A DNA stretch of 64,000 nucleotides. Source: Octadecabacter sp. B2R22. Its GTDB lineage: Bacteria > Pseudomonadota > Alphaproteobacteria > Rhodobacterales > Rhodobacteraceae. This document shows, one piece after another, positions 3,368-33,511 of the stretch (positions are counted from its first letter, which is position 1; the number at the start of each line of letters is the position of its first letter). The notes beneath the pieces are model-generated. The model was not told the origin of the DNA and did no database searches. It saw nothing but the letters and a program-made list of their open reading frames with translations. The DNA lies in the NCBI RefSeq assembly GCF_018861045.1, contig NZ_JAHKQJ010000007.1:1085511-1149510 (forward strand), read 5' to 3'. A program made the translations under genes and the position numbers.

Positions 3368-4541
3368 CACCCACCTCAAGCGCAGGCAGCCCCAACAGGT
3401 TCCGCTTTTCTGCATCTGTGAGGAACGGCGCACTGCTGATCCGGCTCCACTGCGCATCACGTTCGTCCGACAGCGCTGCAACTTGGTCCAAGTCGGGCTT
3501 GAGATGGAAACTCTCCCCCGTGAAATCACCCAACCAATGAGCAATCGACCCCGTTACGCGCGTCACCAATGGCAACACCGTCAAACGATAAAACGCACGG
3601 TTGGCCTCTTGGTAATTCGCGTAAGTGGCATCCCCCGTCAGCCCCAGCAGCATCGGCGGCACCCCAAAGGCAATCGCGATCTCTCTTGCTGCGGCTTCCT
3701 TGGTTTTCTGGAATTCCATGTCGGACGGGCTAAAGCCCATTGGTTTCCAGTCCAAACCACCTTCTAGCAACATCGGACGGCCCGCATTGCGCGCACCCTG
3801 ATGTTGGCTCTCCATCTCACTAAGCAACCGATCATACTGATCGCTGCTCAACTGGCTCTGCCCCTCAGCACCTTTGTAAACAATGGCACCACTTGGCCGC
3901 GCCGCATTGTCGAGCAACGCTTTGGACCACCGGCTCGCCGCGTTATGCACATCAAGCGCCTGCGCAGCCGCCTGCATCGGGCTTAGCCCATAGTGATCAT
4001 CCTGCGGGTGGAACGACTTGATGTGACACACAGGGCTTGGGCCCTCGCCCACCGCAAACCGATGTTTGCGCCCGCCAACCGTGTAGTCATACCCCACAGG
4101 CCAGCCATCCGTCCCGGGAACCAATGTCATCCGGTCGCTGCGCAACACATGCAACTCAAGCGGAACGTCCTCGCCACCGACGGCCTCAAGGTATCCATTG
4201 CCTGTCAGCAGCAACTGACCAAACAAAGCTTCAAACAACTCGGCGCGGCCCTGCGCCCCATTCGGACGCGCAACCAGCTCCAGAACCGGATGCGTGTCAT
4301 AACGACGTTCGCAGTCTTGCAACACTAACGGTAACGCCGCTGCCGCCTCTGCGATCAATTTCACTGCACGAAACCCTACAGGGTTGGCCGTGAACCCACC
4401 GCGTGTCAGCGACGCCGTATCACGCGCACCCCAAACTGCCCGCCCCGCAGATCCCCACGCGGCAATCTTCCCCGTCGCGGATGCCTTCACCTCAGGCACT
4501 GCCTGCTGTTCGCCGTCCGCTCGCTTTAGAAAATCAAACAT
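3360..4541 (-). CDS. GTA portal protein, HK97 family (g3)
   Basis: The 393-residue protein is an HK97-type portal, the twelve-fold ring through which DNA enters the head. Recognisable family stretches include NPVGFRAVKLIAEAAAALPL, LLLTGNGYLEAVGG, DHYGLSPMQAAAQALDVHN, EFQKTKEAAAREIAIAFGVP and PPMLLGLTGDATYANYQEAN. The length is normal for GTA portals. AGGGGA lies about seven bases before the ATG. It follows the large terminase after a 133-base gap and overlaps the small g3.5 gene. Confidence 0.95.
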   Translation of the reverse strand: MFDFLKRADGEQQAVPEVKASATGKIAAWGSAGRAVWGARDTASLTRGGFTANPVGFRAVKLIAEAAAALPLVLQDCERRYDTHPVLELVARPNGAQGRAELFEALFGQLLLTGNGYLEAVGGEDVPLELHVLRSDRMTLVPGTDGWPVGYDYTVGGRKHRFAVGEGPSPVCHIKSFHPQDDHYGLSPMQAAAQALDVHNAASRWSKALLDNAARPSGAIVYKGAEGQSQLSSDQYDRLLSEMESQHQGARNAGRPMLLEGGLDWKPMGFSPSDMEFQKTKEAAAREIAIAFGVPPMLLGLTGDATYANYQEANRAFYRLTVLPLVTRVTGSIAHWLGDFTGESFHLKPDLDQVAALSDERDAQWSRISSAPFLTDAEKRNLLGLPALEVGDG

Positions 4542-4655
4542 TCAAATCCCCTCTGGTGCCGCCGCATCATGGCGTCTCATCCAACACGATATAATTTCGT
4601 CTAAATTTGCTTCGGAATGCTAAAGGCACCGTTCGCTGCCTGCGCAACACCCCGA

Positions 4656-4679
4656 TATCGCCATGAAAATATGGCTATA
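4656..4679. other. Hairpin at the 3' end of the large terminase gene
   Basis: GCCAT and ATGGC form a perfect stem around a six-base AT loop, extended by three more pairs after one mismatch. It straddles the terminase stop codon, in the 133-base gap before the portal gene. There is no U-run. It may be an mRNA processing or stability element. Nothing else was seen in the gap. Confidence 0.35.
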
Positions 4680-6075
4680 ACTGCCGAACCTGCGGCGACC
4701 GCCACCGCTTCGCCGGCTCGATAAACAGATCCGTAATCGCCCAGACCAAGGCATCCACGCGGTCAGGGGATCCCTGTCCCGTAAACCCTTGCGCGGTCAT
4801 CTGGCACATCTCATCTTCCAGCGCCCCAAGCCCCAGAACATGATGAACACGCCCTTGTTCATACAAAGCAGCCACAGGCTCGGCGCGCATGGATTTCCCG
4901 CGCGTCGCATGCACCCCGCGATAGGGCACCGTCGGATCAATGGAACGCACAATGGTCTCAACCATCGCCCCGCCTTGGTTCACTTCCGCCACCAGCCGCT
5001 CCGCGCCATGGCGATCCATGGCGGCAATTGCCGCCGCCGCCCACTCATTGGGGCTCGCTCCTTGGATGCTCGCATCTTCGAGAACAAAGACCTTCCAATC
5101 AGACACCGGTCCTTGGCTCATGATCCCGGCCACAACAATCCCGCACGCATCCGACGTCGCATTCGCCCCCGCAGGCGGGTCAACCGCCACCACAATGCGG
5201 TCCAGTTCCGGCACTGCCTTCACATGAGCAGCCTCAACCGTCGCAGACGACCACAGCGCCCCATCGACGTCCGCCAACAACACGCCGTCCAGCTCTTGGC
5301 GCCCCAACCGTGTGCCCGCATAGCGCTCCTGAACCTCGGCCAGAAAACTGTCGGCAAGGTAGGCACGGTTCGCTTCCGTGGACGCATGGGTTTGAACCGT
5401 GCTGCTCCGCTCCAAAAGCTCTTTCAATATTCCAACATTTCGCGGCGTAGTAGTGACACATGCGCGTGGATTCTTGCCTAAACGCAATCCAAACTGCATC
5501 ATATCCCACGTATCCTGCGCCTTTGGCCATTTCGCCAATTCGTCCGCCCACACGGCGTCAAACTGCGGTCCACGCAGCCGTTCAGGATCAAACGCCGAAA
5601 ACAATCGCGCCTCAGCGCCATTTGGCCAAACCAACATCTGCCGTCCAGAAATCCATTGCGGTCGGCGGTCCGGAGGCGAACAGGCCAAGATGCCACTTTC
5701 ACCAAACACCATAACCTCGCGCGCCTGTTCCATCGTTTCACCGATCAACCCAACACGTTTCGCTAAACCGGGGTCGCGCGGACGCGACCCCTCAACCATA
5801 GACCTGACCCATTCACTGCCCGCGCGTGTCTTGCCTGCACCGCGCCCACCAAGAATAACCCATGTCCGCCAATCCCCCTCAGGGGGCAACTGATGGTCCA
5901 ACGCCCAAAAGTCGAACAAGTAGGGCAGCGCCCTAACCTGCTCATCCGTCAAGCTCCTCAAGAATTGCTTACGATCTGCAACATCGGCGGATGCGACCAA
6001 GGCGGCACCCGATCTCACGTCTGAGGGCGGCGAAGTCGATGTCCCCTTCTCCCAGCCCGTCTCCGAATTTGTCAT
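4675..6075 (-). CDS. GTA large terminase subunit (g2), ATPase/nuclease
   Basis: The large terminase drives headful DNA packaging and cuts the DNA. Walker A (GGRGAGKTRAG, residues 76-86) and Walker B (AVWADE, residues 174-179) are intact. The C-terminal RNase H-like nuclease half shows VVAVDPPAG, RLVAEVNQGG and DRVDALVWAITDL. I placed the start at the ATG with GAGAGG nine bases upstream (466 residues). An ATG 39 bases further out and a TTG near 6000 are alternatives. The start overlaps the small terminase gene by about 107 bases, an overlap seen in other GTA clusters. Confidence 0.92.
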   Translation of the reverse strand: MTNSETGWEKGTSTSPPSDVRSGAALVASADVADRKQFLRSLTDEQVRALPYLFDFWALDHQLPPEGDWRTWVILGGRGAGKTRAGSEWVRSMVEGSRPRDPGLAKRVGLIGETMEQAREVMVFGESGILACSPPDRRPQWISGRQMLVWPNGAEARLFSAFDPERLRGPQFDAVWADELAKWPKAQDTWDMMQFGLRLGKNPRACVTTTPRNVGILKELLERSSTVQTHASTEANRAYLADSFLAEVQERYAGTRLGRQELDGVLLADVDGALWSSATVEAAHVKAVPELDRIVVAVDPPAGANATSDACGIVVAGIMSQGPVSDWKVFVLEDASIQGASPNEWAAAAIAAMDRHGAERLVAEVNQGGAMVETIVRSIDPTVPYRGVHATRGKSMRAEPVAALYEQGRVHHVLGLGALEDEMCQMTAQGFTGQGSPDRVDALVWAITDLFIEPAKRWRSPQVRQL

Positions 6076-28916: not shown

Positions 28917-30227
28917 ATGATCCCTCGCTATGCCCGCCCCGTGATGACCGACATTTGGGAGCCCGCTACCAAATTCAAAATCTGGTACGAGATCGAGGCC
29001 CACGCCTGTGATGCCATGGCTGACATCGGCGTCATCCCACGCGAAAACGCGGATGCGGTCTGGAAAGCCAAGGATGTTGAATTCGACGTGGCTCGGATCG
29101 ACGAAATCGAAGCTGTGACCAAACATGACGTCATCGCGTTCCTGACGCACCTTGCAGAACACGTCGGCAGCGACGAAGCTCGCTTCGTGCACCAAGGCAT
29201 GACATCCTCTGACGTTCTGGACACCTGTTTCAACGTTCAGCTTGTGCGCGCCGCAGACATCCTTGTCGCTGACCTCGAAGGCCTCCTCGCTGCGCTGAAA
29301 AAACGCGCAATGGAACACAAAATGACCGTTCGCGTTGGCCGCAGCCACGGCATCCACGCTGAGCCAACAACAATGGGCCTGACGTTTGCACGCTTTTACG
29401 CTGAAATGGATCGCAACCTTGCCCGCCTGAAACTCGCCCGGACCGAAGTCGCCACTGGCGCGATTTCCGGTGCGGTTGGCACATTCGCCAACATCGACCC
29501 AGCCGTCGAAGAACATGTTTGCGAAAAACTGGGCCTCTCCCCTGAACCGATCAGCACGCAAGTCATCCCGCGCGACCGTCATGCGATGTTCTTTGCAACA
29601 CTCGGTGTTATCGCGTCGTCCATTGAAAACGTCGCCACAGAAATCCGCCACATGCAGCGCACCGAAGTTCTGGAAGGCGCCGAATTCTTCTCAATGGGCC
29701 AAAAAGGGTCCAGCGCGATGCCGCATAAGAAGAACCCGGTTCTGACAGAAAACCTCACGGGTTTGGCCCGCCTTGTGCGCATGACCGTGATCCCCGCGAT
29801 GGAAAACGTTGCCCTATGGCACGAGCGTGATATCTCGCACTCCTCCGTGGAACGTGGCATTGGCCCAGACGCGACTGTGACGCTTGATTTCGCCCTGAGC
29901 CGTTTGACAGGTGTTATCGATAAGATGTTGATCTTCCCTGACAACATGCTCGACAACATGAACAAATTCCCGGGTTTGGTTATGTCTCAGCGCGTGCTTT
30001 TGGCCCTGACACAAGCCGGTACATCCCGCGAGGACGCCTACTCAATGGTTCAACGCAACGCGCTTAAAGTGTGGGAATTCCGTACGGATTTCCAAGAAGA
30101 ACTGCTGGCGGATGAACAAGTGGTTGCCGCCTTGGGCGTCGATGCCATCAAGGAAAAGTTCGATCTTGGCTACCACACCAAACACGTCGACACGATCTTT
30201 GCTCGCGTGTTTGGCGAAACGTCCTAA
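28917..30227 (+). CDS. purB: Adenylosuccinate lyase
   Basis: PurB works twice in purine synthesis, releasing fumarate from SAICAR and from adenylosuccinate. The 436-residue protein starts [16 protein letters not shown]. It has the conserved [12 protein letters not shown] (catalytic His) and the signature loop [18 protein letters not shown], where the catalytic serine lies. A GTG 69 bases upstream is in frame, but the internal ATG with GAAAAGG fits the family start. Confidence 0.98.
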
Positions 30228-30242
30228 CGATCCCTAAAACCT

Positions 30243-30281
30243 TCCATGGGCCCCTAAAAACACAACACCTGGGCCCATGGA
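30243..30281. terminator. Strong inverted repeat between purB and the luxI-type gene
   Basis: TCCATGGGCCC and GGGCCCATGGA are perfect 11-base arms with a 17-base A/C-rich loop, between two convergent genes. There is no U-run on either side, so it may act as a transcription barrier or 3' stability hairpin. Confidence 0.6.
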
Positions 30282-30292
30282 CTGCTAAACAT

Positions 30293-30919
30293 TTACGCCG
30301 CCGTCATTTGCAAGACATTGTTCGCGACTTGCTTGTGACGCGCCGCGATCGCCATCACAGCGTATTTGTGACCATCATCGCCGTTCTCATAGGGTTCACC
30401 CAGCAATTCCGCGCCGTAGCCCAACCGCTTCAATGCGCGCAGAAGCCATAGATTTGACAATGATATCAAAGTATCAGCGCCTTCTTTGTTGGCCATCTCG
30501 ATCAAACCTTCGACGATAAGATCAAGGCACTGCGTCCGCATGCGCATGGAATTCACTTCCGGCGCGATCACCAAACGTGTGCATTCCCAAACCTTTGGGC
30601 TGTCGATCACATCGGTTAGCAGATCACTAGGGATCGTATCCAGTTTCCCCGTCATGGCGTCTTTCAGCATATAGGTATGATCGCCCCAAACCGCCGCCGT
30701 GGACATCGCGCGCGCACCCGCAAGCACCCGCCCGTTATCGTCTAAGACCAGCGAATAGCGGGCCATCGGGTTATCGTATTGGTCCATCTCGACCTCCGCA
30801 TTATGCGGGATTTGCCAATGCAGCGCATCGACGAAGAATTGTTTGCGTAATGCAAGGTAATCAAAAAACGAAGATCCGTATTGGTGGACGTTAGACAATT
30901 CAAAGGTGACATTTTTCAT
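30293..30919 (-). CDS. LuxI-family acyl-homoserine-lactone synthase
   Basis: The 208-residue protein holds all eight residues invariant in LuxI enzymes: R25, F29, W35, D46, D49, R70, E112 and R115 (in LALRKQFFVDALHW, EMDQYDN, VLAGAR and WECTRLVI). It should make an acyl-homoserine lactone from SAM and an acyl-ACP or acyl-CoA. A related exosortase-associated acyltransferase is less likely because a LuxR gene adjoins. AGGAG lies before the ATG inside a perfect hairpin. It lies 139 bases downstream of luxR on the same strand. Confidence 0.88.
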   Translation of the reverse strand: MKNVTFELSNVHQYGSSFFDYLALRKQFFVDALHWQIPHNAEVEMDQYDNPMARYSLVLDDNGRVLAGARAMSTAAVWGDHTYMLKDAMTGKLDTIPSDLLTDVIDSPKVWECTRLVIAPEVNSMRMRTQCLDLIVEGLIEMANKEGADTLISLSNLWLLRALKRLGYGAELLGEPYENGDDGHKYAVMAIAARHKQVANNVLQMTAA

Positions 30920-30922
30920 AGA

Positions 30923-30943
30923 GACTCTCCTATTTGGAGAGTC
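30923..30943 (-). promoter_or_regulatory. Perfect dyad enclosing the ribosome binding site of the luxI-type gene
   Basis: GACTCTCC and GGAGAGTC are exact eight-base arms separated by five bases (AAATA on the coding strand). The 3' arm is itself the Shine-Dalgarno, five bases before the ATG. As RNA it would hide the ribosome site. As DNA its 21-base symmetry is like a lux box. Confidence 0.65.
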
Positions 30944-30984
30944 CATTTAGCGCTCTGAACAATCGTTTGTTAACCAATAAACTG

Positions 30985-30999
30985 TTTCCATATTGGAAA
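30985..30999. promoter_or_regulatory. Palindrome upstream of the luxI-type gene
   Basis: TTTCCA-TAT-TGGAAA is an exact dyad 66 bases before the synthase start. It is a candidate operator for LuxR or another dimeric regulator. Confidence 0.4.
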
Positions 31000-31029
31000 T
31001 AATCGAGACTGATACACCAATGGCATTCG

Positions 31030-31044
31030 TTAACTATTTGTTAA
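31030..31044. promoter_or_regulatory. CtrA-type site (exact TTAA-N7-TTAA) between luxR and luxI
   Basis: TTAA-CTATTTG-TTAA lies 111-125 bases before the synthase start. It overlaps an AT-rich inverted repeat (AACTATTTG / CAAATAGTT, 31032-31059) at the end of luxR. Direct CtrA control of autoinducer synthesis is inferred. Confidence 0.5.
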
Positions 31045-31058
31045 TAAATTCAAATAGT

Positions 31059-31667
31059 TCAAATCAAGCCAAATTCTGCAACCATTGCAGCAGCTTGCGC
31101 TGATGTTTGCGCGTTCAATTTGGTTTTCGCGTTCTTCAAACGCTGTTTGACCGCCCCCTCAGAAACGCCCAACTCATAGGCAATCTGCTTTAGCCGCATG
31201 CCTTCTTTTACCATTTTCAATGCTTCCAGCTCTGCATCGGTCAGATTCGTCGGCGGCGCTTTCTCGTGGTGGCGCCTCAAAACATAGGCGTACAACGCCT
31301 CGATTTCGTGCTTATCAAACTCGCGGTCAGGCCGTGCGAACGTCCCAAAGGACCTTTGCCCTTCTCGGTTTCCGTCAAAACAGGCAACAGCCACACCGTA
31401 TCTCAGGCCAAACGTCTGCGCCTGATCCAACACGCGCATCGGATCAGGAAGCTCAATACCACTCCAGGCAATCGCGCCCGTATTTGCGTAAATCCAACGA
31501 ATTACGGGATCATGCAGCATGAATCGGTGGGTCGTGTAATGCTCAGCCCAAGCGACCGGAAGCGCGTTCACTTCTTCCAATGGAAACGCAAAACCAACCC
31601 GCAACGCTATATAATAGCCGGTCGTAGCCAGAGAACTCACTTCGTCATGAGAAGATAGGTTCATCAA
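31059..31667 (-). CDS. LuxR-family quorum-sensing regulator
   Basis: The 202-residue protein has an N-terminal autoinducer-binding domain with W40, Y44, D53, P54 and W68, spaced exactly as W57, Y61, D70, P71 and W85 of TraR. The C-terminal LuxR HTH (residues 140-185) reads NLTDAELEALKMVKEGMRLK, then QIAYELGVSEGAVKQRLKNA. It probably responds to the signal made by the adjacent synthase. It diverges from a second ligand-binding-domain gene across 144 bases. Confidence 0.93.
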   Translation of the reverse strand: MMNLSSHDEVSSLATTGYYIALRVGFAFPLEEVNALPVAWAEHYTTHRFMLHDPVIRWIYANTGAIAWSGIELPDPMRVLDQAQTFGLRYGVAVACFDGNREGQRSFGTFARPDREFDKHEIEALYAYVLRRHHEKAPPTNLTDAELEALKMVKEGMRLKQIAYELGVSEGAVKQRLKNAKTKLNAQTSAQAAAMVAEFGLI

Positions 31668-31811
31668 TATCCGGGCACCTCAATCGGCCATTTGAAACAA
31701 TTGTCACTGTCAATCTGCACTAAAAACACCTACCATTCAAACCACTGACTGTGAACGCACCTTAGTCCAGCCAGTTGGAGCTTAGCAACTTGAAAGCGAG
31801 TATACACGGGA

Positions 31812-32312
31812 ATGTCAAACACATCACAAATCAGGGAAATTCTCGAAACGGTTGAGACATTGTCTCCTGCTGGCTTTGCGATTGCATTTCATATTCGGCT
31901 AACCTCCCCCGATTTTTTGTTTCAGACCTACGCAAAGGAATGGACCGACATGTACTCCGAAAAAGGTTACGTGATGGTTGACCCTATTGTGCGCTGGGGC
32001 TTCACCGAAACGGGGTCTATTCGATGGTCAGCTCTCGGTGAGTATGATGATCATAACGTTTTGGAACAGTCGCTTGCATTTGGCATGGCCTACGGCGTGG
32101 CAATTGCCACAGAAACCAATGGCAGTCGCAGTTGTGCGGGTTTTTCTCGTGGCGATCGTGAATTTACGGATGATGAAATCGCAGTTCTAAGCGCACACGT
32201 ACAAGATCTGCACGATCTAACCGCCACCAACACCGGTATGGGCGACAAAATGCGCCAGGAATTACAGGCGCTCTCCATTAAGATGACTCACCCGGGAACA
32301 ACCAGGGGTTGA
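31812..32312 (+). CDS. LuxR-type autoinducer-binding domain protein without HTH
   Basis: The 166-residue protein aligns over its length with the ligand domain of the neighbouring LuxR: W44, Y48, D57, P58 and W72 at identical spacing, then AFGMAYGVAIAT and FSRGDREFTDDEIAVLSAHV. It ends with GMGDKMRQELQALSIKM instead of a helix-turn-helix, followed by a clean stop; no HTH remnant follows. TraR-inactivating relatives such as TrlR lack the DNA-binding domain and form inactive heterodimers, so a dampening role is plausible. The GC content is low. Confidence 0.85.
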   Translation: MSNTSQIREILETVETLSPAGFAIAFHIRLTSPDFLFQTYAKEWTDMYSEKGYVMVDPIVRWGFTETGSIRWSALGEYDDHNVLEQSLAFGMAYGVAIATETNGSRSCAGFSRGDREFTDDEIAVLSAHVQDLHDLTATNTGMGDKMRQELQALSIKMTHPGTTRG

Positions 32313-32473
32313 AATTCCGCAGGTACGTGCGGACCAACGCATCTATAAATTCCTATGAAACGACGGTGAATCGCACCCTGAACGCGCAAAATTTCAAATT
32401 CCCAAAGCCCTGTTAAGCCCCCATTCACCTAAATTGCGTTAAAACGGCCTCGATCTTCTGTAGGAGCGCGCAA

Positions 32474-33511
32474 TTGTCGAGTCCGATGCCAAATACCGCC
32501 ACACCCGTCATGCCCCGTTCGCGCAAGGCAGCAATGGTCGTTCAACTTTTACTCAGTGACGGCGGGGACCTCCCCCTCAGTCAGTTGCCCGAAGCCGCAC
32601 AAGCCCGTTTGACCCGCGAACTCGGCGGCCTAAACATCATCGACCGTGAGACATTAAAGAACGTGGCAATCGAATTTGCGGCGGAATTGTCTGATGTCGC
32701 CCTTACGGCTCCGGGCAGCGTCGAAGCCGCGCTCAAATCCCTAGATGGGCGTATTTCTGCGGCGACCGTCGCACGGCTGCGCGAAGAAGCGGCAGCCCAA
32801 AACGGCAGCGATCCGTGGACAATCGTCCTTGAACTGTCCGCAGATGAAATGGTGCCCATCACCACCGCCGAAAGCCCCGAAGTGTCAGCGATTCTGCTCT
32901 CAAAACTCCCGACATCAAAGGCCGCGACTTTGCTTGGTTTGGTGCCTGGTGAAACCGCGCGCCGCATCGCTTTCTCTATGTCGAAAACCTCTCACATCCG
33001 GGCCGATGCAATTGCGCGGATCGGAACGGGTCTGGCTCAGCAATATTGCGGCGCCGCCCTCCCCGCGTTTAGCGAAACCGCGGAAAGCCGCATCGGCGCG
33101 ATCCTCAATTCCAGCCCTGCCGCAACCCGCGAACAGGTTCTCGAAGGGCTGCTGTCTGAAGATCCAAGTTTTGGCGCAAGCGTGCGCAAAGCCATCTTTA
33201 CGTTTGCGGATATCCCTGCCCGCCTTGCTGTGCCTGACGTTCCGAAAATCCTACGTGACATCGATTCCGGCGATCTGGTGCGTGCTTTGGCCTCTGCCGC
33301 AGGTACCGGTGGGCCGTTGGCCGTAGCGGCAAACCACCTACTAGACAACATGTCCACCCGTATGGCCGACAACCTACGCGAAGAAATGGGCGAATCCGGT
33401 AAAATTAAACTCTCGGACGCAGAAGCCGCCCAAAATGCTGTGGTTACAGCCATCCGAGCCGCCGCGGATGCAGGGACTATTGCGTTGATCGTTGAAGGTG
33501 ACGACGATTAG
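32474..33511 (+). CDS. fliG: FliG-like flagellar motor switch protein (orphan)
   Basis: The 345-residue protein shows FliG features: an N-terminal KAAMVVQLLLSDGGDLPL segment and the middle domain with ESPEVSAILLSKLPTSKAA and RADAIARIGTGLAQQY. The C-terminal domain has FTFADIP, VPKILRDIDSGDLVRALASA, NMSTRMADNLREEMGE and IRAAADAGTIALI. FliG couples stator torque to the flagellar rotor. A TTG start has AGGAG seven bases upstream; ATG 32486 is the alternative. No other flagellar gene adjoins. A degenerate CtrA-like site stands about 60 bases upstream. Confidence 0.82.
   Translation: MSSPMPNTATPVMPRSRKAAMVVQLLLSDGGDLPLSQLPEAAQARLTRELGGLNIIDRETLKNVAIEFAAELSDVALTAPGSVEAALKSLDGRISAATVARLREEAAAQNGSDPWTIVLELSADEMVPITTAESPEVSAILLSKLPTSKAATLLGLVPGETARRIAFSMSKTSHIRADAIARIGTGLAQQYCGAALPAFSETAESRIGAILNSSPAATREQVLEGLLSEDPSFGASVRKAIFTFADIPARLAVPDVPKILRDIDSGDLVRALASAAGTGGPLAVAANHLLDNMSTRMADNLREEMGESGKIKLSDAEAAQNAVVTAIRAAADAGTIALIVEGDDD

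Follow-up and report, generated by a model that had tools for sequence, protein, structure and literature searches.

The question raised by this locus is how a LuxR-family protein that carries a ligand-binding domain and no DNA-binding helix-turn-helix (HTH) might take part in quorum sensing. In the 64,000-nucleotide stretch of the Octadecabacter sp. B2R22 genome analyzed here (the window), a 166-residue protein of this kind is encoded divergently from a complete LuxR, beyond which lies luxI, the gene for an acyl-homoserine lactone (AHL) synthase. Judged by phylogeny, gene order, and gapless alignment, the pair is orthologous to CerN and CerM of Cereibacter sphaeroides, and it belongs to an already known kind, the mechanism of the ortholog having been published (PMC11655674, 2024). 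We put the probability of a CerN-type relay in the window at roughly 0.7: the short receptor would act through its CerM-type LuxR neighbor, removing it from DNA upon signal. What is added here is the spread of the pair, the probable age of the HTH loss, and a candidate operator. The features of the locus are as follows.

31812..32312, + strand: HTH-less LuxR homolog (CerN-type), 166 residues, autoinducer-binding domain only; groups with CerN
31059..31664, − strand: complete LuxR (CerM-type, R-delta of Cude and Buchan), 201 residues from ATG; groups with CerM
30293..30919, − strand: luxI, AHL synthase (Autoind_synth, PF00765, 58.8 bits in Pfam for the 217-residue reading; leader comparison)
30924..30942: perfect dyad ACTCTCC-N5-GGAGAGT over the luxI Shine-Dalgarno (SD) sequence, a candidate LuxR operator or RNA hairpin
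31665..31811: divergent promoter region between both luxR-family genes (22-locus alignment)
32474..33511, + strand, as the short gene: fliG (FliG_C, FliG_N, and FliG_M matches)

Relationship to CerN and CerM

The open reading frames of the short protein and of LuxR were confirmed at the coordinates of a preliminary description of this DNA, with a TTG at 31667 as a possible alternative start for LuxR. That description had seen a protein without a DNA-binding domain beside a complete LuxR, and the domain matches bear this out: the short protein matches Autoind_bind (PF03472, 53.1 bits against a cut-off of 23) and no other Pfam family at E up to 1, GerE included, while its neighbor matches both PF03472 (58.0 bits) and GerE (40.6 bits). 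The 2 proteins are 34% identical over 146 residues (E 1e-26), a likeness beyond chance. The short protein retains the full pocket (W44, Y48, D57, P58, W72, and G95; the WYDPWG pattern), with counterparts in LuxR at W39, Y43, D52, P53, and W67 when numbered from the ATG and one higher each from the TTG. The matching spacing of the pocket residues had thus been read correctly, apart from LuxR numbers that are one lower from the ATG.

The CerN/CerM locus of Cereibacter is in genome G064, where it was recognized by gene order, by a phenylalanine in CerM, and by Pfam scores close to the published ones. The short protein encoded there aligns with that of the window over 160 residues without a gap and reaches the same end point, the identities being 37% between the short protein and CerN and 41% between LuxR and CerM; CerN and CerM themselves are 30% identical here and 31% in PMC11655674. 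In both loci an HTH-less LuxR and a full-length one are encoded divergently, luxI lying on the side of the full-length gene; the WYDPWG pocket of the short protein, the C-terminal end, and the tree groups are also shared. They differ in that fliG lies downstream of the short gene in the window.

The Cereibacter proteins give these similarities a mechanistic meaning. According to PMC11655674, CerN lacks an HTH and its binding to CerM is AHL-dependent, which agrees with the preliminary description's proposal that the short protein works by binding its full-length partner. CerM binds DNA without AHL, and CerN together with AHL frees much of that DNA. Swimming is abolished in cells without cerN or cerI and regained upon loss of cerM. 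Because cells without CerN fail to swim just as cells without the synthase do, CerN carries the signal forward in that species. By analogy, the likely sense of the window pair is opposite to that of a brake, with the short protein relaying the signal; the earlier suggestions of a "signal sink" and a "brake" are doubtful in light of a CerN-AHL complex that counters CerM and relays the signal in C. sphaeroides. That the window pair acts as CerN and CerM do would follow from orthology.

The gene order also connects the locus to an earlier survey. From one end to the other, the window encodes a PurB-like protein, LuxI, LuxR, the short protein, and FliG, and the named relatives have the same order of PurB, LuxI, LuxR, short protein, and FliG, PurB having been found in them by similarity to the PurB-like protein of the window. 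This arrangement corresponds to the D topology (R-delta, I-gamma) of Cude and Buchan (2013, PMC3824088), in which fliG, upstream and in opposite orientation, is followed by luxR, luxI, and adenylosuccinate lyase. For Octadecabacter, Loktanella, and others, an appendix table of that paper seems to contain a second luxR tag, and we found no statement in the portions of the paper available to us that this second luxR lacks an HTH. Within the open-licence literature, no further study of CerN/CerM or of HTH-less LuxR proteins in Roseobacter turned up among the listed matches. PMC11655674, as far as its text was available, describes conserved synteny for gtaR only, in 3 organisms compared with C. 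sphaeroides, and the spread of the pair described below therefore goes beyond it.

Conservation, spread, and origin of the pair

Across 57 divergent pairs (L011, where the gene is broken by a stop, was excluded from all pair counts), W44, Y48, D57, W72, and G95 of the short protein are invariant. P58 is kept in 56, and the position of Y40 holds tyrosine in 52 and phenylalanine in 5. The LuxR partners vary slightly, with W39 in 56/57, W67 in 54/57, and G90 in 56/57, so that the pocket of the short protein is kept at least as well as that of its partner. A loss of pocket residues in orthologs, which the preliminary description had named as grounds for refuting its reading, is not seen at the five invariant positions.

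The C-terminal end is also regular. The preliminary description had the short protein stop where the HTH should begin; the HTH is indeed lost, but the protein extends slightly into its start, aligning with the beginning of the LuxR HTH up to about residue 156, after which the rest of the HTH is gone. An AlphaFold2 model (predicted local distance difference test score, pLDDT, 90.3) has the LuxR ligand-domain fold, as in the ligand domains of LasR, RhlR, and TraR, and predicts residues 145–159 as a helix. Counted from the start of the profile match, 49 of the 57 short-position proteins span 156 to 166 residues; 7 are shorter (134–154), and that of L087 is longer. In agreement with the earlier statement that no HTH remnant follows, 300 nt downstream in three forward frames contained nothing credible in the 57 loci (best E 0.57, 3.9 bits), which argues against an HTH displaced into another downstream frame.

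Compared with its nearest relative, the window shows 60 synonymous and 6 nonsynonymous differences in the short gene (ratio of nonsynonymous to synonymous substitution rates, dN/dS, 0.017) and 67 and 11 in the LuxR gene (dN/dS 0.032). Because of this excess of synonymous changes and the pocket residues invariant in 57/57 pairs, the short protein is not a decaying fragment.

Within the genus, 17 of 19 genomes have a match at E 1e-8 or better, including all 11 that are at least 90% complete; among these 17, G011 has part of the short gene and G003 has a stop inside it. At this last locus (L011, on contig G003:C1 of a 5.5-Mb genome), luxR and the luxI dyad also stand about 1.2 kb further apart. 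Among the best 80 of 95 relatives, counted on named genome contigs, the pair occurs in Octadecabacter, Pseudooctadecabacter, Loktanella, Yoonia, Actibacterium, and others. The preliminary description had called for a search in other Rhodobacteraceae, and in a sample of 150 family genomes, each at least 90% complete and together representing 149 genera, a match of any kind at E 1e-15 was present in 70 and the divergent pair in 31 (30/149 genera), 2 of them carrying it twice. The circuit of LuxI, LuxR, and HTH-less LuxR that it had described is thus conserved in relatives, with the pocket residues kept. At one locus (L028, G017:C2) the pair is kept and luxI is absent from this place, purB lying directly after LuxR; luxI is on the LuxR side in 42 of the 48 pair loci with enough flanking sequence. 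The window's genome encodes a second LuxR/LuxI pair (G000:C4:205573-206881), with possible cross-talk.

The association between the 2 proteins is strict in one direction. All 139 family matches could be assigned: 66 to 33 pairs, 2 to genome G105, where LuxR, luxI, and the short gene stand in tandem instead of as a divergent pair, 60 to separate genes, and 11 to loci already counted. The HTH is absent in the short members of all 33 pairs and in the short copy of G105, and present in all 60 separate and the 11 remaining matches. Every one of these 34 HTH-less proteins, which were collected irrespective of any partner, has a CerM-type LuxR adjacent or one gene away. The converse fails: 12 of the 60 separate matches fall within the partner group (support 93) in a larger, weakly resolved tree.

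In a tree of 102 ligand domains, which omits 9 of the 57 short rows, each closely related to others, and 22 of the 57 partner rows, the short-position proteins (49 rows) and the partners (36 rows) form separate groups, with Shimodaira-Hasegawa-like approximate likelihood ratio (SH-aLRT) support of 92 and 88, neither value being starred. Both groups hold many genera, which rules out a recent duplication of the neighboring LuxR. The larger tree (162 rows, few columns), used to classify the 60 added matches, is poorly resolved; the short label changes 3 times and the partner label 8 times, in part from newly added rows that fall among the partners. At L087, from an uncultured Amylibacter (pair at 4296-5612), the short-position gene encodes 204 residues with a weak HTH, scoring 24 bits by our own model, with no Pfam match at E 0.01, and it falls within the short group in a quick tree. 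Placing the HTH-less rows in one clade without L087 raises the likelihood by 33 log units (approximately unbiased test, p-AU 0.947). These results are compatible with, and do not prove, a single and old loss of the HTH, of which L087 may be a relic or ancestor-like form.

A dyad before luxI and the divergent promoter

The luxI start most likely lies at ATGAAAAATGTC at 30919; an in-frame ATG at 30946 stands upstream of the SD sequence. Over that sequence lies the perfect dyad, which is exact and single in 14 of the 19 genus genomes. In 13 of these 14 it lies about 260–390 nt past the match to the LuxR ligand domain; in G003 the distance is about 1.5 kb. A copy with one mismatch is present in G007, 2 other one-mismatch matches occur elsewhere in G005 and G006, and G011, G014, G015, and G017 have none; as a control, the pattern read backwards matched once in G007 and once in G017. 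When up to 3 mismatches are allowed, the genome of the window contains the exact site and 2 others, each with 3 mismatches; the backwards control gives one. Within the window alone the same count is uninformative (2 matches, one of them exact, versus 1.42 in shuffles, with 42 of 100 shuffles giving at least 2).

In 26 of 45 leaders of this luxI type, the best dyad lies in the same register, 2 to 3 nt before the start codon. When arms were swapped among the 36 leaders with GGAG in register (9 of the 45 were left out), 107 outer pairs were observed versus 87.9 after swapping (standard deviation 4.6; 0 of 5,000 as high), and among 23 leaders outside the genus 66 versus 51.3 (8 of 5,000 as high), with the qualification that swaps ignore relatedness. 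The outer arms match beyond the swaps, so the symmetry tends to be kept though the letters change. A motif expression, written after the sequences were seen, matches 24 of the 46 leaders before luxI genes of this type and none of the 62 before other types.

The dyad may be a LuxR operator or an RNA hairpin. The luxI leader folds with a z-score of −3.1 (2 of 200 shuffles as stable) and matches no known RNA family, the only hits being 2 weak matches elsewhere in 30001-33500, far below gathering scores. The dyad core, TCTCCAAAAAGG, considered as akin to the CerM site, differs from it in spacing and was not counted as evidence. A side observation concerns the frame opened by the ATG at 30946: from there to 30919, most genus leaders encode an MDSPxRRVx-like extension (the ATG is absent in L024 and L030), and in L118, L120, and L126 the frame that it opens reads MDSP and closes after these four codons, at the SD sequence. 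This frame is possibly a leader peptide, or a mere by-product of the dyad.

In the divergent promoter, the 22-locus alignment has a recurrent CTGTC at 31707-31711 (TGTC half-site 31708-31711), with GAC 5 nt further on in some relatives; it resembles half of the GtaR-type site in PMC11655674. Just before the short gene, GCAACnnnAAAGCGAGT at 31785-31801 is well conserved at the DNA level in Octadecabacter and some other genera. No sigma-70-type promoters were predicted in 30900-32500 (shuffles 1.8), a result that says little for this bacterial group.

A probable signal relay and its alternatives

If the window pair works as CerN and CerM do, LuxR would bind its own DNA sites without signal and LuxI would produce AHL. 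The short protein would bind the AHL, pair with LuxR, and take it off the DNA, thereby converting the signal into lost LuxR activity. A likely target would be the luxI gene, whose ribosome-binding site the dyad covers, giving self-amplification by derepression. A motility role is plausible because flagellar motility in Cereibacter is under CerN/CerM control by way of CtrA (PMC11655674). The window's genome encodes a flagellin above the cut-off.

Several observations weigh against this CerN-type relay. The main weakness in transferring the mechanism lies in W57F of CerM, from which its authors suppose that CerM binds AHL weakly (PMC11655674). The corresponding phenylalanine occurs in 1 of 57 partners, the Cereibacter one, and therefore marks that species and not the clade; the LuxR of the window keeps the tryptophan (W39), as do 56 of the 57 partners. 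Relay elsewhere must then rest on something else, or LuxR may itself sense AHL, in which case the division of labor may differ. In the published work, AHL alone somewhat weakened the binding of CerM to DNA in vitro, and a cerI cerN double mutant swam slightly, for which the simple model gives no explanation. Identity to CerN and CerM is modest, cerR intervenes in Cereibacter and not in the window, and the Cereibacter synthase is of another LuxI type. As to the dyad, the motif is missing from 22 of the 46 leaders that precede this type of luxI, and its spacing (TCTC-N7-GAGA) differs from that of the GtaR-like site in the CerM paper (TGTC-N6-GACA). Constraint on the short gene is also weaker at the genus level, with a median dN/dS of 0.166 (13 comparisons) versus 0.059 for LuxR (19), mainly at its ends (0.34 and 0.41; core 0.14), and the G003 copy has its internal stop.

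The near absence of W57F is the reason for retaining a TrlR-like brake as an alternative, in which LuxR would be an activator requiring AHL and the AHL-bound short protein would damp the response by forming dead heterodimers. TrlR of Agrobacterium tumefaciens, compared here by description, is likewise a LuxR-type protein without a DNA-binding domain that pairs with a full-length relative, and it acts in this way on TraR (PMC11655674, PMC13043044); the retained AHL pocket of LuxR would suit such an activator. TrlR, however, is a near-copy of TraR (88% identical, PMC11655674), whereas the window proteins share 34% identity and stand in separate tree groups of many genera each, which argues against a recent truncated copy, and the short protein is not a TrlR-type near-copy. 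The ortholog pair also works in the opposite sense, CerM binding DNA without AHL. We regard a brake as unlikely.

Still less probable is that the short protein is a sink or private receptor, which would lower free AHL or hand it to a protein such as FliG. A 2015 survey of LuxR solos (PMC4338825) reports proteins consisting only of the autoinducer-binding domain, frequently encoded close to full LuxR genes, and proposes that they sequester ligand or bind a partner; the text available names no family, orthology, or mechanism. The pocket is unchanged, and fliG, the genome's only FliG_C match, follows the short gene in the same orientation at 28 of the 56 pair loci that have enough flanking sequence; it is missing there in the other 28, and the same LuxR type lies close to all 34 HTH-less copies, a partner that a mere sink would not need. 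A functionless, decaying LuxR pseudogene, to which the lost HTH, the G003 stop, and the 7 early-ending copies might point, is ruled out for the window's genome by the selection result and has a negligible probability, the 49 copies of uniform length and the unchanged pocket also speaking against it.

The CerN-type relay may extend further, though this is less likely than not: across the family, an HTH-less protein would be the main AHL sensor of a split receptor, with a LuxR active in its ligand-free form on a single luxI dyad, derepression as the outcome, and a tie to a flagellar switch gene. HTH-less luxR-type genes are easily dismissed as truncated, and the arrangement known from CerN and CerM of a single species is widespread in the family. 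If the split receptor is real, quorum sensing in these bacteria would work by derepression: on signal, a LuxR blind to DNA would release the synthase from repression.
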